Origin: Terrabacter tumescens
GTDB taxonomy: Bacteria > Actinomycetota > Actinomycetes > Actinomycetales > Dermatophilaceae
Length of the DNA: 64,000 nucleotides
NCBI RefSeq assembly: GCF_014646815.1
Contig: NZ_BMNZ01000002.1
Location: 623,469 to 687,468, forward strand
Reading direction: 5' to 3'
In this document: positions 2,767 through 28,703 of the stretch, piece by piece
Position numbering within the stretch: position 1 is the stretch's first letter
Layout of the letters: the number at the start of each line of letters is the position of its first letter
Made by a program: the position numbers and the translations under genes
Notes under the pieces: model-generated
The model's database searches: none
The model's input: only the letters and a program-made list of their open reading frames with translations
Told to the model about the DNA's origin: nothing

Positions 2767-2987
2767 CCCCGGTGCGAACCACGGTGGGGACCGAGGGCGA
2801 CGAGACGCCGCACGAAGGACGTGGCGGGAGTGCGCGGTTCGGGGTCGCTGGTCATCGGTCCGCCGAGTCTATCGACGGCTCGGGTGCCGGCCGTCTCGCG
2901 ATCCGCCGAAGTGGGTAATGCTTCTGTGGCGGCTCCCAGACAGACGTGTTGTCATGGTGCGGTCGCCCAGTCCAGAGAGGTGCAGCG

Positions 2988-5900
2988 GTGGATCCCAAGA
3001 AGACGTTCTTGTCCTGGCCGGTCGTCCGGCAGGTGCGCTCGGGTGACTTCCTCGGTCGCGGGCCGGCGGTCACGTCCGCCCACACGCGCGAGCTCACGCC
3101 CCGCACCGCGACGGCCGACAAGGTCGTCCAGAGCGTGTGCCCCTACTGCGCCGTCGGCTGTGGCCAGCGCGTCTTCGTCAAGGACGGCCGCGTCGTCCAG
3201 ATCGAGGGAGACCCGGACTCACCGGTGTCGCGAGGGCGTCTGTGCCCCAAGGGGTCCGCGAGCGAGCAGCTCGTCAACAACCCGGGTCGGCAGCGCAAGG
3301 CGCTCTACCGCCGACCCGGAGGCACGGACTGGGAGTCCATCGAGCTGTCGACGGCCGTCGAGATGGTGGCGCAGCGCTTCGTCGAGTCGCGCCGCCGCAC
3401 GTGGCAGGACCACGACGAGCACGGGCGCCCGCTGCGGCGCACCATGGGGATCGCCTCGTTGGGCGGAGCGACGCTCGACAACGAGGAGAACTACCTCATC
3501 AAGAAGCTCTTCACCGCCGCCGGTGCCATCCAGATCGAGAACCAAGCTCGTATTTGACACAGCTCCACGGTCCCCAGTCTGGGGTCCTCGTTCGGGCGCG
3601 GCGGCGCCACGCAGTACGTGCAGGACCTGTCCAACGCCGACTGCATCGTCATCCAGGGATCGAACATGGCCGAGTGCCATCCGGTCGCCTACCAGTGGGT
3701 GACGGAGGCTCGGCTCAAGGGTGCCCGGGTCATCCACGTCGACCCGCGCTTCACGCGTACGTCGGCCACGGCTGACAAGCACATCCCGATCCGGGCGGGC
3801 AGCGACGTCGTGCTGCTCGGCGCCCTCATCAAGTACATCCTCGACAACGAGCTGTACTTCAAGGAGTACGTCGTCGCGTACACCAACGCGGCCACGATCG
3901 TCAGCGAGAAGTTCCAGGACACCGAGGACCTCGACGGCCTCTTCTCCGGCTACGACGACGAGAAGGGCAGCTACTCCCAGGAGACGTGGGCCTACGCCAG
4001 CAACGACGGCGCGGACGACGAGACGCCCGGCACCATCGGCGGTCCCGCGGCGGGTCACGAGCACGGTCACACCAAGTCCGAGCGGGCCGCGGGCGACGAG
4101 CACGGGTCGGGTGGTCCCGCCCTCGAGCACGCCAAGGTGCTGAGGGACGAGACGCTCCAGGACCCCAACAGCGTCTTCCAGATCCTCAAGAAGCACTACG
4201 CCCGCTACACCCCGGAGATGGTCGCCGACACCTGCGGCATCGGCGTCGACGACTTCGAGTACCTCGCGCGCTCGGTCACCGAGAACAGCGGGCGCGAGCG
4301 CACCACGGCGTTCGTGTATGCCGTGGGCTGGACCCAGCACACGCTCGGTGCGCAGTTCATCCGCACCGCCGCCATCGTGCAGCTGCTCCTCGGCAACATG
4401 GGCCGTCCGGGCGGCGGCATCATGGCACTGCGCGGCCACGCGAGCATCCAGGGCTCGACCGACATTCCGACCCTCTACAACATCCTCCCCGGCTACCTCG
4501 CGATGCCCGTCGCAGGCCTGCACGACACGTGGGACGACTACCTCGGCGCCATCGGCAACAAGGAGCAGAAGGGCTTCTGGGCCAACGCCGACACGTATGC
4601 CGTGAGCCTGCTCAAGGCGTGGTGGGGCAAGGCCGCGACCGCCGAGAACGACTGGTGCTTCGACTACCTCCCGAGGCTGAGCGGTGCGCACGGCACCTAC
4701 CAGACGACGATGGCGATGCTCGACGACCAGGTCGAGGGCTACTTCCTGCTCGGCCAGAACCCCGCCGTCGGGTCGGCGCACGGCCGCATGCAGCGCCAGG
4801 CCATGTCGCACCTCAAGTGGCTCGTCGTGCGCGACTTCAACATGATCGAGTCCGCGACCTTCTGGAAGGACGGGCCGGAGATCGCCTCCGGTGAGCTGAA
4901 GACGGAGGACATCGGGACCGAGGTCTTCTTCCTCCCCGCGGCCGCGCACACCGAGAAGAGCGGGTCGTTCACCCAGACCCAGCGCATGCTCCAGTGGCAC
5001 CACCAGGCGGTCGAGCCCCCGGGCGACTGCCAGAGCGAGCTGCAGTTCTTCTACGAGCTCGGACGCCGGGTGCGCGAGCTGCTCGCCGACTCGACCGACG
5101 AGCGGGACCGTCCGCTGCTCGACCTGACGTGGGACTACCCCACCGACGAGCACGGTGAGCCCGACGCCGAGGCGGTGCTCGCCGAGGTCAACGGCCGTCA
5201 CCTGACGGGCGACAAGGCGGGAGAGCCTCTTTCGTCCTACACCGAGATGAAGGCCGACGGCTCCACCGACGGCGGCTGCTGGATCTACACGGGTGTCTAC
5301 GCCGACGGCGTCAACCACGCAGCCGCGCGCAAGCCCGGCCGCGAGCAGGACCTCACGGCGCTCGACTGGGGCTGGGCCTGGCCGGCGAACCGCCGCATCC
5401 TCTACAACCGCGCCTCGGCCGACCCCGAGGGCAACCCGTGGAGCGAGCGCAAGCGCTACGTCTGGTGGGACGCCGAGGCCGGCAAGTGGACCGGGCACGA
5501 CGTGCCGGACTTCGTGCCGGACAAGGCGCCGAGCTACCGGCCCGAGCCGGGCACGGGCGGACCCGCAGGTCTCGCCGGTGACGACCCGTTCGTCATGCAG
5601 GCCGACGGCAAGGGCTGGCTCTTCGCGCCCAAAGGCATGCTCGACGGGCCGCTGCCGACCCACTACGAGCCGCAGGAGTCTCCGGTCAGCAACCCGCTCT
5701 ACGCCCAGCAGTCGAACCCGGCCCGCAAGGTGTTCCCGCGCAAGGACAACCTGTGGAGCCCCTCCGGTGACGCGCCGGGTGCCGACGTCTATCCGTACGT
5801 CTTCACCACCTATCGGCTGACCGAGCACCACACGGCCGGCGGCATGAGCCGGTGGCTGCCCTACCTCTCGGAGCTCCAGCCGGAGTTCTTCTGCGAGGTG

Positions 5901-6314
5901 TCGCCGGAGCTCGCGGCCGAGCGCGGCCTCGAGAACGGCGGGTGGGCGACCATCGTGTCGGCCCGAGCCGCCATCGAGGCCCGCGTCATGGTCACCGAGC
6001 GGATGACGCCCCTGGTGGTCCGGGGCCGCACGATCCACCAGATCGGGCTGCCCTACCACTGGGGCGTCGGCAGCAACGCGATCGTGAGCGGCGACGCCGC
6101 CAACGACCTGCTCGGTGTGGCTCTCGACCCCAACGTCCAGATCCAGGAGAGCAAGGCGGGCTCGTGCGACATCGTGCCCGGCCGCCGACCGGCGGGTGAC
6201 GAGCTGCTGCGGCTCGTCGCCGAGTACCAGTCGAGGGCCGGCAGCACCGTCATGACGAGCAACGAGCTGCGCACCGGTCACCCGGAGTCCACCCCCGACA
6301 CGAGAGGAGGCTGA
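2988..6314 (+). CDS. fdhA: Formate dehydrogenase catalytic subunit, selenoprotein (in-frame UGA at 3555-3557)
   Basis: Reading through TGA at codon 190 gives 1108 residues, the size of membrane-complex formate dehydrogenases (E. coli FdnG about 1015). An N-terminal 4Fe-4S motif uses Cys51, Cys54, Cys58 and Cys86 (CPYCAVGC...CPKG). The UGA sits in ENQARI-U-HSSTVPSLG, exactly where Sec or Cys ligates Mo/W in this family, and the frame continues as coding sequence. The rest shows molybdopterin-dinucleotide domains (HVDPRFTRTSA, NMGRPGGG, PYHWG near the end). The enzyme oxidises formate to CO2 and passes electrons to the Fe-S subunit that follows 2 nt later. Start is GTG with GAGAGG upstream. No twin-arginine signal is visible, so the active site is probably cytoplasmic. 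A His/Gly/Glu-rich insertion lies near residues 350-380. Confidence 0.93.
3569..3587 (+). promoter_or_regulatory. SECIS-like hairpin directing UGA to selenocysteine
   Basis: Eleven nucleotides after the UGA the coding strand can fold GGUCCCCA (3569-3576) onto UGGGGUCC (3580-3587), with one U:U mismatch and a GUC loop. The loop lies about 20 nt from the UGA, close to the spacing in E. coli fdhF/fdnG SECIS elements, which bind SelB. The structure is seen directly; binding is inferred from family knowledge and the linked selB gene. Confidence 0.75.
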
Positions 6315-6316
6315 CG

Positions 6317-7420
6317 ATGGGCTTCTGGCGCAACCAGCTCTCCGGCCCCACCGACCCGGCCGCCGATGCCGCGTGGGAGACGAGCGAACCCCGCAAGGGC
6401 TTCTTCACCGACACCTCGATCTGCATCGGGTGCAAGGCCTGCGAGGTGGCCTGCAAGGAGTGGAACGGCGTCCCCGAGGACGGCCTCGACCTGCTGAGCC
6501 AGTCCTACGACAACACGGGCGCCCTCGGGGCCAGCACGTGGCGGCACGTCGCGTTCGTGGAGCAGACGAGCGACCGCATCGAGCAGGCCCGCGAGTCGGG
6601 GCGCAAGCTCGTCTCGCTCGGTATGCCGTCGGTGCGCTCAGGCGACGAGCCCGCCCTCGCCGGTGGCGGGGGCACGGCGACCGCGACGCTCACGGACACG
6701 CTCACGGACAACCCGGTGCCCGACGTGCGTTGGCTGATGGCCTCCGACGTGTGCAAGCACTGCACCCACGCCGCGTGCCTCGACGTGTGTCCGACCGGGG
6801 CCCTCTTCCGCACCGAGTTCGGCACCGTCGTCGTGCAGGACGACGTGTGCAACGGCTGCGGCTACTGCGTGGCCGCCTGCCCGTTCGGCGTCATCGAGCG
6901 CCGGAGCGGCAACGAGGGCCACGAGAAGGGCCCGCAGTCCCACGGCATCAGCATCAAGGGCGCCGGGGGCGCCGGAGACACGGCCAAGGGCTCGCACCAG
7001 AACCAGCCGGCCCACGCCTCGAGCAACGGCGAGGTCAAGAACGTCGGCATCGCCCAGAAGTGCACGCTCTGCTACGACCGCCTCGGCGCGGGACAGACGC
7101 CCGCGTGCGCCCAGGCCTGCCCGACGACCTCCATCAAGTTCGGCGACCTCGACGAGATGCGGGCCACGGCGCGCGCCCGCGTCGCCCAGCTGCACGAGCT
7201 CGGCTATCCCGAGGCCCGCCTCTACGGCGTCGACGAGCACGACGGCGTCGGCGGCACGGGCTCGACGTTCCTGCTGCTCGACGAGCCCGAGGTCTACGGC
7301 CTGCCGCCGGACCCGCGGGTGACGACCGCCGACCTGCCCGACATGTTCCGCAAGGCCGGCTACGCGGGGCTGACGATGCTCGCGATGGCCGCGGCCGCCT
7401 TCGTGGGGAGACGCAAGTGA
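6317..7420 (+). CDS. fdhB: Formate dehydrogenase iron-sulfur subunit
   Basis: 367 aa electron-transfer subunit with four ferredoxin-type cysteine clusters: CIGCKACEVAC near residues 36-47, CKHCTHAACLDVCPTGA near 147-160, CNGCGYCVAACPFG near 179-192, and CTLCYDRL...CAQACPT near 249-275. Each would bind a 4Fe-4S centre, forming the wire from the Sec/Mo site to the membrane. A hydrophobic C-terminal segment (LTMLAMAAAAFVG then RRK) anchors it. Starts 2 nt after the catalytic subunit and its stop overlaps the next start (GTGA). A Gly/His/Ser-rich insertion (residues about 200-240) separates clusters three and four, longer than in the E. coli FdnH-type protein. Confidence 0.92.
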   Translation: MGFWRNQLSGPTDPAADAAWETSEPRKGFFTDTSICIGCKACEVACKEWNGVPEDGLDLLSQSYDNTGALGASTWRHVAFVEQTSDRIEQARESGRKLVSLGMPSVRSGDEPALAGGGGTATATLTDTLTDNPVPDVRWLMASDVCKHCTHAACLDVCPTGALFRTEFGTVVVQDDVCNGCGYCVAACPFGVIERRSGNEGHEKGPQSHGISIKGAGGAGDTAKGSHQNQPAHASSNGEVKNVGIAQKCTLCYDRLGAGQTPACAQACPTTSIKFGDLDEMRATARARVAQLHELGYPEARLYGVDEHDGVGGTGSTFLLLDEPEVYGLPPDPRVTTADLPDMFRKAGYAGLTMLAMAAAAFVGRRK

Positions 7421-8529
7421 CGACCAACCCCTTCGACGCCGACCGCCCGCCGGAGCGGACGCGCCGTCGCGGCAACGGCGGCGGTGGCGGCGGTGGCGGT
7501 CGCAACGGCGGCAAGCGTCGTGACGAGTCGATCATGGTCCCCGACGTCAGCTTCGACAGCTACTACGGGCGCCACATCGTCAAGCCCGCACCGTGGGAGA
7601 AGGAGGTGGCGGCATACCTCTTCCTCGGCGGCATCGCCGCGGGCTCCGCGCTGCTCGGCGCCGGGGGTGCGGCTCGTGGCTACCCGGCCCTGCAGCGCGC
7701 CGGGCGCATCGGTGCCGTCGCCGGTGCCGCGCTCGGTGGTGCCGCGCTGGCCAAGGACCTCGGCAAGCCCAGCCGTGCCCTCAACATGATGCGCACCGTC
7801 AAGCTGACGTCGCCGATGTCGGTCGGCTCGTGGATCCTCACCGCCTTCGGCAGCTTCGCCGGTGCCGCGCTCGTCTCCGAGGTCGCGCGCCCGGTCATCG
7901 AGCGCCGTTCTCGCGGGGCGCGATCCGGCGGCGCGGTCGCCCTGGTCGCCAAGGCGCTCAAGCTCGCCGACGGGCCGGCCACGGTGGGGTCCGCGTTCTT
8001 CGCGCCGCCGCTGGCGGCCTACACCGCGGTGCTCCTCGCCGACACGGCCACCCCGACGTGGCACGAGTCCTACCGCGAGCTGCCGTTCGTCTTCGTCAGC
8101 TCGGCCAACCTCGCGGCCTCGGGGCTCGCCCTCGTCACCGTCCCGACGCGCGAGAACGGCCCGGCCCGCAAGCTCGCCGCCGTCAGCGCGCTCGCCGAGC
8201 TCGTCGCCTTCGAGCGCATGCAGGACAAGCTCGGACCCACGCTCTCGGAGCCGCTGCGCACCGGCAAGGCCGGGCGACTGCTCAAGGCCAGCCGGGCCCT
8301 CACGGTCGGGGGAGCCCTCGGGGCCGTCGCGCTCGGTGGCAACCGGGTCACCGCCGCGCTCAGCGGGGCGGCACTCATGGCCGCCTCGGTGTGCACCCGC
8401 TTCGGCGTCTTCGAGGCCGGCATGGTCTCGGCGATCGACCCGAAGTACACCGTCGAGCCCCAGCGCGAGCGGCTCGAGAAGCGCCGCGCGGCCGGCGTCG
8501 TCGACGACTCGATCACCACGGCGCGATGA
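7417..8529 (+). CDS. nrfD: NrfD/PsrC-like membrane subunit of formate dehydrogenase
   Basis: 370 aa from GTG overlapping the fdhB stop by 4 nt. The first 60 residues are hydrophilic with a run of glycines between basic residues. After about residue 60 come roughly eight to nine hydrophobic helices (first: AAYLFLGGIAAGSALLGAGG), the layout of NrfD polysulfide-reductase membrane subunits, which replace the cytochrome b subunit and deliver electrons to quinone without haem. Its place after the Fe-S subunit makes it the membrane partner. No haem-ligating His pattern of FdnI type was noticed. Exact quinone chemistry is inferred from the family. Confidence 0.85.
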   Translation: MTTNPFDADRPPERTRRRGNGGGGGGGGRNGGKRRDESIMVPDVSFDSYYGRHIVKPAPWEKEVAAYLFLGGIAAGSALLGAGGAARGYPALQRAGRIGAVAGAALGGAALAKDLGKPSRALNMMRTVKLTSPMSVGSWILTAFGSFAGAALVSEVARPVIERRSRGARSGGAVALVAKALKLADGPATVGSAFFAPPLAAYTAVLLADTATPTWHESYRELPFVFVSSANLAASGLALVTVPTRENGPARKLAAVSALAELVAFERMQDKLGPTLSEPLRTGKAGRLLKASRALTVGGALGAVALGGNRVTAALSGAALMAASVCTRFGVFEAGMVSAIDPKYTVEPQRERLEKRRAAGVVDDSITTAR

Positions 8530-8563: not shown

Positions 8564-9874
8564 ATGAGCACCAGTGCGGTTCGGAACGACAGCACCGCCT
8601 CGCCCGGCGGCAACCGCTGGGTCATCCTCGTGTGCGCGGTACTCGTGCAGCTCGCCATCGGCTCCGTCTACGCGTGGAGCGTCTTCGCCAAGGCGCTGCA
8701 GAGCGACGCCGCCTTCGGATGGTCGAAGTCGAAGGCCGCGGTGCCCTTCAGCGTCGTCATCGGGATGATCTTCGTCGGCAGCTACGTCGGTGGCCGGCTC
8801 CAGGACGCCCGAGGCCCCCGGGTCGTCGCCATGACGGGCGGGGTCATCTACGCCGTCGGTGTCATCCTCGCGTCCTTCGCCCAGTCGGCCGACTCCTTCT
8901 GGCTGCTCGTCCTCGGCTACGGCGTCATCGGCGGCTTCGGCCTCGGCATGGTCTACATCGTCCCGATCGCCATGCTGCAGAAGTGGTTTCCCGACAAGCC
9001 GGGCCTCATCACCGGCCTCGCCGTGGCCGGCTTCGGGTTCGGCGCGGTGGTCACGGCACCGGTGGGGCAAGCCCTCATCGACCAGTCACCGAGCGTGCCC
9101 ACCAAGGCGTTCCTGTGGCTGGGGATCGGCTACCTCGTCATCCTGCTCGTCTGCACCTCGGTCTTCCGCAACCCCGCGGTCCTGCCCGACGTGACGGGGG
9201 CGACCAGCAAGGACGCACCGAGGGTCGAGAACGGCACGGGCCCGCGCGACTTCACCCCGAGCGAGGCGATGCACACCAAGCAGTGGTACCTCCTCACCGC
9301 CATCCTGACGATGAGTGTCACGGCCGGCATCTCGCTCATCGCCGTCGCCGCTGGCACGGCCACAGATGTGGCCGGCTACTCGACCGCCGCAGCCGCCGCG
9401 CTCGTCGGCGTGCTCGGCCTCTTCAACGGTGCCGGCCGCATCTTCTGGGGCTGGATCTCCGACATGATCGGCAAGATGCCGGCCTTCCTCGGCATCCTCG
9501 GCATCCAGGGCATCTGCCTCCTGCTCATCCCGCACGCGAGCAGCACGGCCCTCTTCGCGGTGCTCGCGGCGCTCGTCTACCTCTGCTACGGCGGGGCGTT
9601 CGGCACGATGCCGTCCACCGCAGGCACGTTCTTCGGGGTGAAGAACGTCGGCGCCATCTACGGGCTGATGCTCATCGGCTGGAGCATCGGCGGTGTCGTG
9701 GGTCCGCTGCTCATCGCGTCGCTCATCGGGAGCGAGAAGGCCTACAACCTCGGCTTCACCGTCATCGGCGTCATCACGCTCGTCGCGCTCGTCCTGCCGC
9801 TCGTGACCAAGAAGCCGCGGCACGAGCCGGCACCGGTCGAGGACCGCCACGGGACTGGCGCGAGCCGCCGGTAG
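8564..9874 (+). CDS. MFS transporter, oxalate/formate antiporter (OFA) family
   Basis: 436 aa with about twelve membrane segments. N-terminal NRWVILVCAVLVQLAIGSVYAWSVF and the later GFGLGMVYIVPIAMLQKWFPDK match the OFA branch of MFS carriers (OxlT-like), which move small carboxylates. ATG start with GAAGGGGAG 5 nt upstream, 34 nt after the NrfD gene on the same strand, so it is probably co-transcribed with the formate dehydrogenase. The context suggests transport of formate or a formate-yielding acid; the substrate is not proven by sequence. Confidence 0.85.
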   Translation: MSTSAVRNDSTASPGGNRWVILVCAVLVQLAIGSVYAWSVFAKALQSDAAFGWSKSKAAVPFSVVIGMIFVGSYVGGRLQDARGPRVVAMTGGVIYAVGVILASFAQSADSFWLLVLGYGVIGGFGLGMVYIVPIAMLQKWFPDKPGLITGLAVAGFGFGAVVTAPVGQALIDQSPSVPTKAFLWLGIGYLVILLVCTSVFRNPAVLPDVTGATSKDAPRVENGTGPRDFTPSEAMHTKQWYLLTAILTMSVTAGISLIAVAAGTATDVAGYSTAAAAALVGVLGLFNGAGRIFWGWISDMIGKMPAFLGILGIQGICLLLIPHASSTALFAVLAALVYLCYGGAFGTMPSTAGTFFGVKNVGAIYGLMLIGWSIGGVVGPLLIASLIGSEKAYNLGFTVIGVITLVALVLPLVTKKPRHEPAPVEDRHGTGASRR

Positions 9875-9882
9875 AACGGCCG

Positions 9883-10281
9883 TCACTCACGCACATCGGC
9901 GGGTCCGGGTGCCAGGGGTAGCCCTGCGGCTGCCCAGGCCTCGACCCCGCCGATGACGTCGGTGGCCCGAGCGAGTCCGACTCCGTGCAGGGAGGCGGCG
10001 GCGAGCGAGCTGCTGTAGCCCTGCCGGCAGATCACGATGACGCGCAGGTCGTCGCGGTCCGCCTCCGGGATCCGGGCCTGGCTCGTGGGGTCGAGCCGCC
10101 ACTCGAGGACCGTGCGGTCGATGACGAGCGCGCCGGGCAGCTCACCCTGTCGGGCGCGCTGCGGTGGCGTGCGCGTGTCGACGAGCAGGGCGCCTGCCCG
10201 GACCTCGCGCCACGCCTGCTCGGGCGACAGCCGCTGCAGGCCTGAGCGGGCCTGCGCCAGCACGTCGTCGACTCGGCTCAT
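9883..10281 (-). CDS. Rhodanese-like sulfurtransferase, coupled to selD
   Basis: 132 aa, a single rhodanese domain. The active-site loop is CRQGYSS near residues 85-91, with catalytic Cys followed by Arg and the Ser-Ser common in small rhodaneses; the N-terminal strand LLVDTRTPPQRARQGELPGA is the usual entry to the fold. ATG 10281 overlaps the TGA of selD (ATGA), so the two are translated together. Single-domain rhodaneses carry persulfide. Coupling to selD suggests it may carry selenium as perselenide for selenophosphate synthesis, an inference from context rather than a motif. An ordinary sulfur role is equally possible. Confidence 0.88.
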   Translation of the reverse strand: MSRVDDVLAQARSGLQRLSPEQAWREVRAGALLVDTRTPPQRARQGELPGALVIDRTVLEWRLDPTSQARIPEADRDDLRVIVICRQGYSSSLAAASLHGVGLARATDVIGGVEAWAAAGLPLAPGPADVRE

Positions 10282-11288
10282 CGCACCTGCAGGACATGCT
10301 CGCCGCGGGGGACGAGCTCGCCGATGACCGTGCCGCCGGGCACCTCGCCGGCGACGAGCAGGCCGCCGCTCGTCTGCGCGTCGGCGAGCAGCAGCAGCTC
10401 GTCGTGGTCGACGGTGGCGTCGAGGTGCGGGCTCACCCAGTCGAGGTTGCGCTGGCTGCCGCCGGGCACGAAGCCGGCTGCAAGCGAGGCCCGCGCCCCG
10501 TCGAGGTAGGGGACCGCGGCCGAGTCGACGACCGCGCTCACGCCCGACGCCCGCGCCAGCTTGTAGAGGTGGCCGAGCAGCCCGAAGCCGGTGACGTCGG
10601 TGGCGGCCCGGATGCCGCGCTCGAGTGCGTCCCGGCACGCGACGTCGTTGAGCGCGGCCATGGAGGCGACGGCCTCGGGGAAGACCTCACCGGTCGCCTT
10701 GTGCCGGTTGTTGAGCACCCCGACGCCCAGCGGCTTGGTCAGGCTGAGCGGCAGCCCCGCCCGGCCGGCGTCGTTGCGCAGCAGGCGATCCGGGTCCGCG
10801 ACGCCCGTGACGGCCATGCCGTACTTCGGCTCGGGGTCGTCGATGCTGTGGCCGCCGGCCACGGGGCACGCGGCGAGCCGAGCGACGTCGAGACCGCCGC
10901 GCAGCACCTCGGCCGCGAGTTCGCGGGGCAGCACGTCACGCGGCCACCCGAGCAGGTTCACGGCGAGCACGGGACGACCGCCCATGGCATAGATGTCGGA
11001 GAGGGCGTTCGCCGCGGCGATGCGCCCCCAGTCGTAGGCGTCGTCGACGACGGGCGTGAAGAAGTCGGCCGTCGCGAGCACCGCCAGGCCGTCGTTGATG
11101 CGTACGGCTGCCGCGTCGTCGCCGTCGTCGAGCCCGACGAGCAGGTTCGCGTCGGCGATCCCGGTCAGCCCGCTCACCATCTCCTCGAGCTCGCCCGGCG
11201 GGATCTTGCACGCGCAGCCGCCGCCGTGGGCGAACTGCGTCAGTCTCACCCGGGTCCCGTCGTGCACCTTGTCCACGCTCGCCGTCAT
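10278..11288 (-). CDS. selD: Selenide, water dikinase (selenophosphate synthase)
   Basis: 336 aa. Makes selenophosphate from selenide and ATP, the selenium donor for SelA. The glycine-rich N-terminal loop GGGCACKIPP carries the catalytic Cys (Cys, not Sec, in this copy) and the Lys two residues after the second Cys; the ATP/Mg-binding region reads GLDDGDDAAAV and TADFFTPVVDD, and ATDVTGFGLLGH is the AIRS-fold signature. ATG 11288 is preferred over GTG 11294 because a TACGGT -10 box ends 6 nt before it, which makes a leaderless start. Divergent from the Sec tRNA, and overlapping the rhodanese gene at its 3' end. Confidence 0.96.
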   Translation of the reverse strand: MTASVDKVHDGTRVRLTQFAHGGGCACKIPPGELEEMVSGLTGIADANLLVGLDDGDDAAAVRINDGLAVLATADFFTPVVDDAYDWGRIAAANALSDIYAMGGRPVLAVNLLGWPRDVLPRELAAEVLRGGLDVARLAACPVAGGHSIDDPEPKYGMAVTGVADPDRLLRNDAGRAGLPLSLTKPLGVGVLNNRHKATGEVFPEAVASMAALNDVACRDALERGIRAATDVTGFGLLGHLYKLARASGVSAVVDSAAVPYLDGARASLAAGFVPGGSQRNLDWVSPHLDATVDHDELLLLADAQTSGGLLVAGEVPGGTVIGELVPRGEHVLQVR

Positions 11289-11294
11289 ACCCAC

Positions 11295-11373: not shown

Positions 11374-11469
11374 GGAGGTGTCTGGGCACCTGGTGGTCCC
11401 CCCGGTCTTCAACACCGGTGAGACCGAGCATCTCGGTCTGGCGGGTTCGATTCCCGTCCACCTCCGCCA
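11374..11469 (+). tRNA. selC: Selenocysteine tRNA, anticodon UCA
   Basis: 96 nt including an encoded CCA end. The acceptor stem pairs GGAGGTG (11374-11380) with CACCTCC (11459-11465), with discriminator G and CCA. The anticodon stem CCGGT/ACCGG holds loop CTTCAAC, giving anticodon TCA at 11409-11411, which reads UGA. A long variable arm (GAGACCGAG with CTCGGTCT, about 11420-11438) and TTCGATT T-loop complete the class II-like tRNA-Sec form. It lies 25 nt before selA. The UCA anticodon plus the extended variable arm makes this secure. Confidence 0.96.
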
Positions 11470-11494: not shown

Positions 11495-12817
11495 GTGGCG
11501 CAGTCGGACCCGCGTCGGGCGGTCCCACGCACCGACGTGCTGATGGGCCACCCCGACCTCGTCGCCGCCGTGGCCCGGCACGGTGCTGCCACGGTCAAGG
11601 AGGCGGTGCGCTCGGCACAGTCCCTGGCCCGCTCCGGAGAGATCGCGCCGGACGACGTGCTCACGGCGGCGCGCGCGATGCTCCCGTCCCGCAGCACGAC
11701 CCTCCGGCCGCTCCTCAACGCCACCGGCGTCGTCGTGCACACCAACATCGGCCGGGCACCGCTGTCGGACGCCGCCGTCGACGCGGTTGTGGCAGCCGCG
11801 GCCTACCTCGACGTCGAGTACGACACGGCCACCGGAGCGCGCGCCCGTCGCGGGCGCGGGACCCTCGAGGCCCTGCGGGCGGCGGTCCCCGCGGCCGGTG
11901 ACGCGCTCGTCGTCAACAACGGTGCGGCCGCGCTCGTCCTCGCCACCACCGCCCTCGCCGCCGGCCGGGAGGTCCTCGTCAGCCGGGGCGAGATGGTCGA
12001 GATCGGCGACGGCTTCCGCCTGCCCGACCTCATCGCGTCGACGGGCGCGCGGCTCCGCGAGGTCGGCACGACCAACCGCACCCGGCTCGCCGACTACGCC
12101 GACGCCCTCGGACCCGAGACCGGCTGCATCCTCAAGGTGCACCCGAGCAACTTCCGCGTCGAGGGCTTCACGAGCGCCGCGTCGGTGCGCGAGCTCGCGA
12201 CACTGGGCGCGCCGCTCGTCGTCGACATCGGCAGCGGGCTGCTCCACCGCGACGACCTGCTGCCCGACGAGCCCGATGCGACGACGGCGCTCACCGACGG
12301 CGCCACGATCGTCACGGCGAGCGGCGACAAGCTGCTCGGCGGCCCACAGGCCGGTCTCGTCCTCGGCGAGGCCGCCACGGTCGAGCGGCTGCGGCGCCAC
12401 CCCCTCGCGCGGGCGCTGCGCGTCGACAAGCTGACGCTCGCCGCTCTCGAGGCGACCCTGCGCGGACCGGTGCCGCCGGTCACCGACTACCTCCACGTCG
12501 ACCGCGACCGGCTGCGGGCCCGCACCGAGCGGCTGGCCACCGCCGTGTCGGGCGAGGTCGTCGCCGTCGAGGGACGCGTCGGTGGCGGCGGGGCGCCGGG
12601 GCTGCCGCTGCCCGGCTGGGCCGTGGCGCTTCCGGAGGAGTGCGCCGAGCGCCTGAGGCGGGGTCAGCCCGGTGTCGTGGCCCGCGTCGAGCGGGGCCGC
12701 TGCCTCGTCGACCTGCGCTGCGTGCCGCCGGCGCGGGATACCGACGTCGAGCGCGCGATCCTCGCGGTCCGCGCCGTCCTCGACGTCCGTGGCGTCGACC
12801 GGCCGAGCGGCGACTGA
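11495..12817 (+). CDS. selA: L-seryl-tRNA(Sec) selenium transferase
   Basis: 440 aa PLP enzyme that converts Ser-tRNA(Sec) to Sec-tRNA(Sec) using selenophosphate. Visible motifs are LLNATGVVVHTNIGRAPLS near residues 72-90, VNNGAAALVLA in the cofactor domain, and the PLP-lysine region ASGDKLLGGPQAG near residues 272-284. GTG start at 11495 with AGGAG about 10 nt upstream; the open frame extends upstream only through the tRNA, so this start is the sensible one. It is followed after 3 nt by selB. Confidence 0.96.
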   Translation: MAQSDPRRAVPRTDVLMGHPDLVAAVARHGAATVKEAVRSAQSLARSGEIAPDDVLTAARAMLPSRSTTLRPLLNATGVVVHTNIGRAPLSDAAVDAVVAAAAYLDVEYDTATGARARRGRGTLEALRAAVPAAGDALVVNNGAAALVLATTALAAGREVLVSRGEMVEIGDGFRLPDLIASTGARLREVGTTNRTRLADYADALGPETGCILKVHPSNFRVEGFTSAASVRELATLGAPLVVDIGSGLLHRDDLLPDEPDATTALTDGATIVTASGDKLLGGPQAGLVLGEAATVERLRRHPLARALRVDKLTLAALEATLRGPVPPVTDYLHVDRDRLRARTERLATAVSGEVVAVEGRVGGGGAPGLPLPGWAVALPEECAERLRRGQPGVVARVERGRCLVDLRCVPPARDTDVERAILAVRAVLDVRGVDRPSGD

Positions 12818-12820
12818 CCC

Positions 12821-14632
12821 GTGCACGTCATCGCGACCGCCGGCCACGTCGACCACGGCAAGTCCACCTTGGTGCGGGCCCTGACCGGGATCGAACCCGA
12901 CCGGTGGGCCGAGGAGCGCCGCCGGGGCATGACGATCGACCTCGGGTACGCGTGGACGACCCTCGCGTCCGGCGCTGACGTCGCCTTCGTCGACGTGCCC
13001 GGGCACCAACGCTTCATCGGCAACATGCTCGCCGGGCTGGGCCCCGCGCCCGCCGTCATGCTCGTGGTCGCCGCCGACGAGGGCTGGCGCCCCCAGTCGG
13101 CCGAGCACCTCGCGGCCGTCGACGCGCTCGGCATCTCGCGCGGGCTCGTCGTCGTGACACGCAGCGACCTCGCCGATCCCGGTCCCGCGATGGCGGAGGC
13201 GCTCGACCACGTCGGCCGCACCAGCCTCGCCGGCAGTGCCGCGCTCGCGGTTTCGGCGCGCACCGGCGAGGGGCTCGACGCCCTCCGCGGCGCCCTCGAC
13301 GACCTCGTCGGTGCGCTCCCCACCCCCGACCGCGACGGACGCACCCGCCTCTGGGTCGACCGGTCGTTCTCGGTCCGCGGCAGCGGCACCGTCGCCACCG
13401 GCACCCTCGGGGCCGGGACCGTCCGGGTCGGCGACGAGCTCCTCGTGCACCGCGCGAACGGCGCCTCCCACACCGTCACGGTGCGCGGGCTGCAGAGCCT
13501 CGGCCGGACCCACGACGAGGTGCCCGCCGTGGCCCGCGTCGCGGTCAACCTGCGCGGCATCGGGGTCGACGACGTCGCGCGCGGCGACGTGCTGCTGACG
13601 CCACGGGTCTGGCACGTCACGACGTCGCTCGACGTGCGGCTCGTCGGGGCGAAGGCGTCGGGGCCCGGCGGTGTCGCCGCCGAGCGGCTCCCGAACCGCC
13701 TCATGGTCCACGTCGGCACGCTTGCCCTCGAGGCGCGGGTGCGTCCCCTCGGACCGGGCGCGGTGAGGCTGCTCCTGCCGTCGACGCTGCCCCTCGTCGG
13801 CGGCGACCGGGTCGTCCTGCGCGACCCGGGCTCGCGTCACGTCGTCGGCGCGGTCGTCGTCGACGCCGACCCCCCGAGGCTCGACCGGCGGGGCGCCGCA
13901 GCCCGACGGGCAGAGGTCGTCCGGGGCCTCGACGGCGCGCCGGACCTGGCCCGTGAGGTCGCCCGGCGCGGCTGGATGAGGCAGGCCGATGCCGGCTCGC
14001 TCGGCATCACGGTGCCGGCCGGTGAGCGGCCGGCCGAGACCGTCGCGCGCCGGGGTGCCTGGCTCGTCGACGACTCCGCCTGGCAGGACGCAGCCGAGCG
14101 GCTGCGCGCCGCGGTTCAGCGCCGGGCCGACACCACGCCGATCGACCCCGTGCTCGCCCTCGAGGCCGCGCGCGCCGCTGCCGGGGCACCCGATCGTGCC
14201 CTCGTCACCGACCTCGCCGCGGCCGTGGGGCTCGAGGTGCGCGACGGCCGCGTCGGGCTGCCCGGGCGCACCGCAGCCCTCTCGGCCCCCGCCGAGGCCG
14301 CTCTCGGCAGGATCGAGGAACGCCTGCGGCAGCGCCCCTTCACGGCTCCGGAGCAGCACGAGCTCGACGCCGCAGGGCTCGGGCCGCGCGAGCTGGCCGC
14401 CGCCGAGGGCACCGGCCGCATCCTGCGCCTGCCCGGCGACGTGGTCCTGCTCCCCAACGCGCCGGCCCTCGCGATGCGCGAGCTCGCGGCGCTCCCGCAG
14501 CCGTTCACGACGAGCGACGCCCGCCAGGCGCTCGACAGCACGCGCCGCATCGTCATCCCGCTGCTCGAGCACCTCGACCGCCGCGGATGGACGCGACGTC
14601 TCGACGGCTCGCACCGCGAGGTCGCCCGCTGA
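12821..14632 (+). CDS. selB: Selenocysteine-specific elongation factor
   Basis: 603 aa GTPase that carries Sec-tRNA(Sec) to UGA codons flagged by a SECIS. G1 motif GHVDHGKST lies at residues 5-13, the G2/G3 region includes RRGMTIDLGYAW and VDVPGHQRFI, and the EF-Tu-like barrel domains follow. The C-terminal 200 residues contain winged-helix repeats used for SECIS binding (for example PFTTSDARQALDSTRRIVIPLL near the end, typical of SelB domain IV). GTG start 3 nt after selA. Its only visible client here is the formate dehydrogenase. A hairpin terminator follows directly. Confidence 0.96.
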   Translation: MHVIATAGHVDHGKSTLVRALTGIEPDRWAEERRRGMTIDLGYAWTTLASGADVAFVDVPGHQRFIGNMLAGLGPAPAVMLVVAADEGWRPQSAEHLAAVDALGISRGLVVVTRSDLADPGPAMAEALDHVGRTSLAGSAALAVSARTGEGLDALRGALDDLVGALPTPDRDGRTRLWVDRSFSVRGSGTVATGTLGAGTVRVGDELLVHRANGASHTVTVRGLQSLGRTHDEVPAVARVAVNLRGIGVDDVARGDVLLTPRVWHVTTSLDVRLVGAKASGPGGVAAERLPNRLMVHVGTLALEARVRPLGPGAVRLLLPSTLPLVGGDRVVLRDPGSRHVVGAVVVDADPPRLDRRGAAARRAEVVRGLDGAPDLAREVARRGWMRQADAGSLGITVPAGERPAETVARRGAWLVDDSAWQDAAERLRAAVQRRADTTPIDPVLALEAARAAAGAPDRALVTDLAAAVGLEVRDGRVGLPGRTAALSAPAEAALGRIEERLRQRPFTAPEQHELDAAGLGPRELAAAEGTGRILRLPGDVVLLPNAPALAMRELAALPQPFTTSDARQALDSTRRIVIPLLEHLDRRGWTRRLDGSHREVAR

Positions 14633-27443: not shown

Positions 27444-28703
27444 TCAGCGCCAGAGGCCGCGGGTGTCGACGAGCTCGCGGCCGCGCAGATCGGCGAGCGT
27501 GATCGCGCGGAAGGCCGCGTGGTCGACGAGCAGCACCACGACGTCGGCCTCGGCGAGGGCCTGCTCCGTCGCGGCGAGCTCGACGTTCGGCAGCGCCGCC
27601 AGACCACGGGGCAGCGCGTCGATGTGCGGCTCGACCGCGAGGACCCGCGTGCCGGGCCGCTCCTTCGCAAGCGTCTCGGTGATCGACAGGGCCGGCGACT
27701 CGCGCAGGTCGTCGATGTCGGCCTTGAAGGCGAGGCCGAGGCAGGCGACGGTGCCACCTTCGCCGTCCGTGCGACCGGTCAGGGCGAGCGCGTCGGAGAT
27801 CTTCGTCAGCACGGTGCGCGGCCGGGCGTCGTTGGTCTCACGAGCCGCCCGGACGAGCCGCGCCTGCTCGGGTGCGGCCGAGACGATGAACCACGGGTCG
27901 ACGGCGATGCAGTGGCCGCCGACCCCCGGGCCCGGCTGCAGGATGTTGACGCGCGGGTGGTGGTTGGCCATCGAGATGACCTCCCAGACGTCGAGGCCGA
28001 TGTGCTCGCAGATCTCGGCGAGCTCGTTGGCGAAGGCGATGTTGACGTCGCGGAAGGCGTTCTCGGTGAGCTTGGCCATCTCGGCCGACTTCGCGTCGGT
28101 GAGGATGATGTCGCCGGTGACGAAAAGCCGGTAGACCTCGGCGGCCCGCTGCGCGCACTCGGGCGACAGCCCCCCGACGATCCGGTCGTTGGAGAAGATC
28201 TCGACCATGATCCGGCCGGGCAGCACCCGCTCGGGGCAGTGGGCGAGATGCACGTCGGAGATGCCGCCCATGTGCGGCAGCTTGAGGTCGGGCCGCAGGT
28301 CCGAGATCCACTGCGAGATCAGCTCGGTCGTGCCGGGCGGCGACGTCGACTCGAGGATGACGACCTCGCCGCCGCGGAGCATCGGCGCGATGGCCTCGGT
28401 CGCCGAGCGCACGTGGCGCAGGTCCGGCTCGTGGTCGCCCGTGAACGGCGTCGGCACGGCGATGAGGTAGACCGAGGCGTGCGGCATGCTCGTCGTCGCG
28501 GTGAGCAGCCCGTCGGCCATGGCCGAGGCGATGGCCACGTCGAGGTTGGGCTCGACGATGGGCACGCGCCCGGCGTTGATCTCCGAGACGGTGCGCTCGT
28601 TGACGTCGACGCCCGTGACGCGCAGGCCGTGGCGGGTGAGGGCGGCGCAGGTCGGCAGGCCGATGTAGCCGAGGCCGATGACGGCGATTCCGTCGTCGAA
28701 CAT
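27444..28703 (-). CDS. wecC: UDP-N-acetyl-D-mannosamine dehydrogenase
   Basis: 419 aa. FDDGIAVIGLGYIGLPTCAAL at the N terminus, INAGRVPIVEPNLD, ESTSPPGTTE, and the catalytic-Cys motif GPGVGGHCIAVDPWF match WecC-type enzymes that oxidise UDP-ManNAc to the uronic acid with two NAD+. ATG 28703 has GGGAGA about 7 nt upstream; an in-frame start further up exists but would add only a low-complexity stretch. Directly followed by wecB, the enzyme that supplies its substrate. Confidence 0.93.
   Translation of the reverse strand: MFDDGIAVIGLGYIGLPTCAALTRHGLRVTGVDVNERTVSEINAGRVPIVEPNLDVAIASAMADGLLTATTSMPHASVYLIAVPTPFTGDHEPDLRHVRSATEAIAPMLRGGEVVILESTSPPGTTELISQWISDLRPDLKLPHMGGISDVHLAHCPERVLPGRIMVEIFSNDRIVGGLSPECAQRAAEVYRLFVTGDIILTDAKSAEMAKLTENAFRDVNIAFANELAEICEHIGLDVWEVISMANHHPRVNILQPGPGVGGHCIAVDPWFIVSAAPEQARLVRAARETNDARPRTVLTKISDALALTGRTDGEGGTVACLGLAFKADIDDLRESPALSITETLAKERPGTRVLAVEPHIDALPRGLAALPNVELAATEQALAEADVVVLLVDHAAFRAITLADLRGRELVDTRGLWR

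Follow-up and report, generated by a model that had tools for sequence, protein, structure and literature searches.

A putative selenocysteine codon and its candidate SECIS hairpin in the formate dehydrogenase gene fdhA of Terrabacter tumescens, located near a complete set of sel genes

Formate dehydrogenases (FDH) that contain selenocysteine (Sec) and are encoded beside sel genes represent a well-known phenomenon, already published for actinobacteria. The pathway is outlined as the binding of SelB with the charged Sec-tRNA-Sec to the SECIS element, exclusion of the release factor, and insertion of Sec at UGA (PMC5311926, PMC5029168). FdhA and SelD are described as the most widespread bacterial selenoproteins, where fdhA is often situated beside sel genes and the change from Sec to Cys in FdhA is documented (PMC1794560). 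In Corynebacterium aurimucosum the fdnG gene is reported to carry an in-frame UGA and to be clustered with selA, selB, selD, and selC (PMC2830990). In A. chiangmaiensis DSM 45062 the membrane-bound FDH1 was detected by proteomics, and the removal of formate was dependent on selenite, an effect that is not tied to FDH1 alone since three Sec-FDHs are described (PMC7176365). In the literature on Terrabacter and selenocysteine, as far as titles and the beginnings of abstracts indicate, no paper on this enzyme was found.

The DNA analysed here is a stretch of 64,000 nucleotides of the soil actinobacterium Terrabacter tumescens (contig NZ_BMNZ01000002.1, positions 623,469 to 687,468), referred to below as the window, which belongs to a genome of 4.7 Mb. 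The gene for the FDH alpha subunit (fdhA, 2988..6314, plus strand) encodes 1108 residues including Sec when it is read through the in-frame TGA, and its predicted start, GTG 2988, is preceded by a Shine-Dalgarno-like GAGAGG at 2976..2981 of the same strand, recognized by reading of the sequence. The TGA at 3555..3557 (plus strand), a putative Sec codon, is codon 190 counted from this GTG and lies in the context ENQARI-U-HSSTVPSLG, as the preliminary description had located it. The claim that the same homologous frame continues past the TGA agrees with the 918 open codons that follow it up to TGA 6312-6314, and the GC3 of fdhA is 0.84–1.00 in every whole 150-nt slice on either side. The protein matched the NCBIfam model NF041513 (formate_DH_Act) with 1966 bits over residues 6–1083 (cut-off 1400), a score that indicates no departure of this FdhA from the model, and the FDH-N alpha model TIGR01553 with 939.7 bits (cut-off 814). 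PDB matches included 1h0h and 1kqf, and in both alignments shown a nonstandard residue X stands at the aligned position. A further FDH-like protein, with no stop in its reading frame, is also encoded in this genome (G000:C4:433423-435477, minus strand; 520.8 bits, below the cut-off of 666).

This locus resembles that of C. aurimucosum, by description and across genera, in having the UGA in the alpha-subunit gene together with a sel cluster (PMC2830990). By size it can be likened to FDH1 of A. chiangmaiensis, with subunits of 1078, 362, and 366 amino acids versus 1108, 367, and 370 in the window; SelA and SelB are listed there in the FDH1 cluster, SelD is given no cluster in the table of that report, and the permease has 322 amino acids versus 436 here (PMC7176365). 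The E. coli FDH-N (FdnG, PDB 1kqf) has a homologous alpha subunit with TGA at the same column, located 11 nt before GGU...AGUCU. Both fdnG and fdhF of E. coli share this column and the 11-nt spacing to the hairpin, which begins with GGU followed by a loop with GUCU.

For comparison 110 loci were collected, namely, L009–L038 from 58 genomes (L009 being the window itself) and L039–L118 from named genomes, the latter being the best 80 of 481 confirmed matches. An intact TGA was found in 106 loci, which are not independent since some genomes occur in both sets and which, at 45 nt, comprise 79 distinct sequences; of the others, two have a Cys codon (TGC in L034 and TGT in L113 of Streptomyces albidus), in L048 the TGA precedes an N and a gap in the sequence, and the FDH of L038, distant at 44% identity, is devoid of the motif. 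Among those best 80 matches the nearest named FdhA relatives belong to Terrabacter aerolatus (96%), Humibacillus xanthopallidus (92-93%), and a metagenome-assembled genome labelled Cellulomonas (92%). Thus the column behaves as the Sec/Cys active-site position that the preliminary description had assumed, and a family lacking Sec and Cys at this column, named there as evidence to the contrary, is not what the 110 loci present. The Cys forms would represent losses from a Sec ancestor. Apparent second in-frame TGAs in L012, L026, and L034 were rejected, as they fall in the terminal stop region, where the matches ran to or past the end of the gene.

Two readings that deny recoding can be weighed against these data. 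A genuine stop, leaving either a pseudogene or two separate proteins, corresponds to the output of a plain ORF finder, which gives two ORFs (2946-3557 and 3618-6314) exactly as expected from the earlier warning that a standard translator would split the enzyme. The TGA is nevertheless common to nearly all loci compared, and the part of the gene behind it is under purifying selection in the four TGA pairs tested (dN/dS 0.095–0.207; higher, 0.416, versus the Cys gene L034); moreover, the downstream ORF alone would be deprived of the N-terminal Fe4S4 domain (residues 45–98), and we regard this reading as extremely improbable. An artefact of sequencing or assembly that altered a Cys codon could be suspected from L048, whose N and missing sequence after the TGA imply that a GC-rich hairpin can disturb assembly; however, the same TGA recurs in 106 loci from mostly separate assemblies, so that the relatives already refute such an error and its probability is practically nil.

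The chance occurrence of such a configuration was estimated by a scan of 1406 stop triplets on both strands of the window, with the criterion of 60 open codons per side and coding-like GC3 and GC2. Five triplets passed, and 3555 alone lies within a single homologous protein. The other four, at 12815, 2011, 27446 (minus strand), and 9378, were rejected as Sec sites: 12815 is the end of selA, 2011 is the end of an IclR-type regulator gene, and 9378 is antisense to a gene of the major facilitator superfamily (MFS). The stop at 27446, considered as the site of a second selenoprotein, separates two same-frame genes and is followed by GGAGAG ahead of an ATG; we take these genes to encode a nucleotide-sugar dehydrogenase and an epimerase.

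The hairpin announced 11 nt downstream of the TGA was found at 3569..3587 (plus strand), and 11 nt separate its first base from the TGA. The sequence GG-U-CCCC-AGUCU-GGGG-U-CC forms a stem of 3569–3575 with 3581–3587, where U3571 is opposite U3585, and a loop AGUCU (3576–3580). Its most variable stem pair, 3572-3584, joins two third codon positions and is formed in all 106 TGA loci (CG 49, UA 46, UG 9, and GU 2); in both Cys genes this position is C-C, so that pairing is broken, and the loop U is replaced by A or G. For the 79 distinct sequences the covariation score was reached by none of 500 shuffles, a control that is inflated by the relatedness of the sequences, and it fell from 0.210 to at most 0.135 when the partner was shifted by 1–3 columns. 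Two of the five shuffle-control measures were unexceptional (both-side changes 137/500 and pair types 80/500), four of the seven stem pairs are invariant, and the basal pair 3569-3587 is formed in 66 of the 106 loci. The loop U3578 is a third-position T (AGT or GGT) in every TGA locus, compared with 8.6% AGT among AGY codons and 10.5% GGT among Gly codons farther along the same genes, and GTT occurs at the pair 3572-3584 in 55/106 loci, yet it makes up only 1.4% of Val codons. Of 20000 random synonymous recodings, 0.84% produced the four-pair stem together with the loop U. At the level of sequence comparison these data show a hairpin that is under selection as RNA.

The case for the hairpin is built on conservation and covariation and not on energy. 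The folding of 3550-3600 proposed in the preliminary description gives an ordinary energy (z −0.30; +1.39 for 3555-3605 and −0.31 in a separate fold); among 4000 synonymous recodings 14.3% reach a fold at least as stable, and both Cys genes also fold stably in different shapes (−13.1 and −11.9 kcal/mol). The fold energy was consequently set aside as evidence. The published model of the bacterial SECIS includes an apical loop of 3–9 nt with an upper stem of 4–16 bp, a G as the first or second base of the loop, a distance of 16–37 nt from UGA to the apical loop, and a free energy of −7.5 kcal/mol or lower (PMC13188914). The hairpin at 3569-3587 fits this model: in the window it has the loop AGUCU with 4 bp or GUC with 5 bp, and the sizes of loop and stem agree in the window and the few relatives folded; G3577 is present in 106/106 TGA loci; the distance is 18 nt to A3576 and 19 nt to G3577; and the energy is −11.4 kcal/mol in the window and −7.5 kcal/mol or lower in all 106. 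In an FDH-specific search with a SECIS model, where 150 candidates were scored in each of five genomes, the genome of the window gave the site at 3555 only, and nothing was obtained in G033, G039, G045, and G062, where other selenoproteins are possible.

The set of genes for Sec decoding is complete and is located 4-8.3 kb downstream of fdhA. It includes selD (selenide, water dikinase in Cys form; 10278..11294, minus strand; TIGR00476 383 bits, cut-off 125), selC for the tRNA-Sec with anticodon UCA (11374..11469, plus strand; detected by ARAGORN and by Rfam RF01852 at 11374-11465 with 73.6 bits, cut-off 47), selA for L-seryl-tRNA(Sec) selenium transferase (11522..12817, plus strand; TIGR00474 390 bits, cut-off 268; start codon uncertain), and selB for the Sec-specific elongation factor with a C-terminal winged helix (12821..14632, plus strand; TIGR00475 264 bits, cut-off 242; SelB-wing_3 at 555–598). 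The start of a gene for a single-domain rhodanese (9883..10281, minus strand; PF00581 42 bits) and the stop of selD share 4 nt. By tblastn (E 1e-8) a homologue of this rhodanese was detected in 5 of 80 related loci, not all of which are complete. One may speculate that the rhodanese hands sulfur or selenium to SelD. Selenouridine use is described as absent in actinobacteria (PMC5322559).

The distribution of this machinery follows that of the gene. SelB was found in 31 of the 58 genomes (E 1e-30, the genome of the window included), and the same 31 genomes have an Rfam tRNA-Sec match above 60 bits, with 55.0 as the next lower value; in 47 genomes the score exceeded 47, the cut-off set for the model, and the matches of 47–55 bits are read as other tRNAs because genomes lacking SelB have them too. 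Orthologs with at least 62% identity are present in 29 of the 58 genomes, 28 with TGA and one, G033, with Cys; all 28 TGA genomes possess SelB and a strong tRNA-Sec, and G033 has neither. In the two Cys genomes, G033 and G062, SelA was not found (it was found in all six other genomes searched), no tRNA-Sec exceeded the cut-off, SelB matches were restricted to the GTPase domain (query residues 3–264, 31–36% identity), and SelD was absent from G033 and represented in G062 by one partial 29-bit match.

Several genomes deserve separate mention. Besides pieces of a related fdhA near its sel genes, G015, with SelB, contains a distant FDH that has one TGA. G039 and G045 have kept SelA, SelB, and tRNA-Sec and have no ortholog of this FdhA, and their matches to the FDH model TIGR01591 contain no in-frame stop. 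In L046–L049 (Pedococcus and Phycicoccus) selA is situated at another genome site, outside the tRNA-Sec/selB cluster; a loss of selA was ruled out there, as SelA was found elsewhere in 4/4 genomes. In Actinomadura (L086, L087, and L090–L096) fdhA lies near selD, selB, or selA, with no fdhB or nrfD detected, in contrast to the window, and several of these loci are short.

These data bear on another explanation, according to which the UGA is read through independently of SelB, by a near-cognate tRNA or general suppression, with insertion of Trp, Cys, or another residue. UGA readthrough is known in general, and nothing specific speaks for the SelB-independent case here. Against it stand the Sec machinery, which is both near fdhA and distributed in the same way, the covariation of the hairpin, and the Cys form, which accompanies the absence of Sec machinery and of hairpin pairing; therefore this explanation is considered very unlikely. 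The reading of the in-frame UGA as Sec, put forward in the preliminary description, thus gains support from the column, the sel genes, and the covariation. With very high confidence, UGA 3555 is predicted to encode Sec, a likely Mo/W ligand, in a membrane-anchored FDH (FdhA-FdhB-NrfD), with the hairpin at 3569-3587 as its SECIS.

The predicted partner subunits follow directly. The gene for the iron-sulfur beta subunit (fdhB, 6317..7420, plus strand) encodes several 4Fe-4S Pfam domains and scored 161 bits with TIGR01582, below the cut-off of 335. The next gene encodes an NrfD-like membrane subunit (7417..8529, plus strand; PF03916 NrfD 54.6 bits, cut-off 25.8), for which no NCBIfam match was obtained; the membrane subunit of E. 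coli FDH-N is instead a cytochrome b. An MFS transporter (8564..9874, plus strand) had its best match in the L-lactate carrier model NF049980 SfMCT (402 bits, cut-off 320) and remained below the cut-off of the oxalate/formate antiporter models (TIGR00890 220 bits, cut-off 375). The FDH accessory gene fdhD is located elsewhere in the genome.

No twin-arginine (RR) motif is present in the FdhA of the window, in contrast to E. coli FdnG. Among 102 testable N-termini from 111 loci a loose twin-arginine pattern was found in two, E. coli FdnG and L028, and the match in L028 falls upstream of the likely start. As the alpha subunit is without this motif, the FDH of the window, a relative of FDH-N, probably faces the cytoplasm.

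A small difference from E. coli concerns U3571. In the E. coli-type SECIS a bulged U that lies beneath the upper stem and has no base opposite it is important, and E. coli fdnG indeed folds with the U after GG unopposed, whereas in the window this U is opposed. Throughout the 106 TGA loci U3571 faces a base (U in 24, the window among them, A in 46, and G in 36), so that it is able to form a UA or UG pair in 82 of them and an unopposed bulged U of E. coli type is never present; when folded singly, L015, L020, and L094 have it paired. The opposite base is part of a codon for Ser, Thr, or Ala, and coding constraint may be the cause of its variation. It is conceivable, though we hold it only tentatively, that the actinobacterial FDH SECIS constitutes a distinct recognition class, in which SelB would rely on the GU of the loop together with the upper stem, with no bulge involved.

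The proposed sequence of events would begin with the synthesis of selenophosphate by SelD and the conversion of Ser-tRNA-Sec to Sec-tRNA-Sec by SelA. SelB carrying Sec-tRNA-Sec would then bind the SECIS, and its complex would keep out the release factor and place Sec at residue 190. In the enzyme Sec 190 would ligate Mo or W, and formate would be oxidised. The binding of SelB, the insertion of selenium, the ligation of the metal, and the oxidation of formate are assigned here by membership in the family.

In summary, the predicted recoding would correct the gene model of this Terrabacter FDH, giving one enzyme instead of two fragments. The two Cys-codon genomes, with hairpin pairing broken and with SelA, SelB, and a strong tRNA-Sec not found, offer a clean natural comparison for the TGA genes. 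The base opposite the bulged-U position, for its part, provides a small testable question on SelB-SECIS recognition in actinobacteria.
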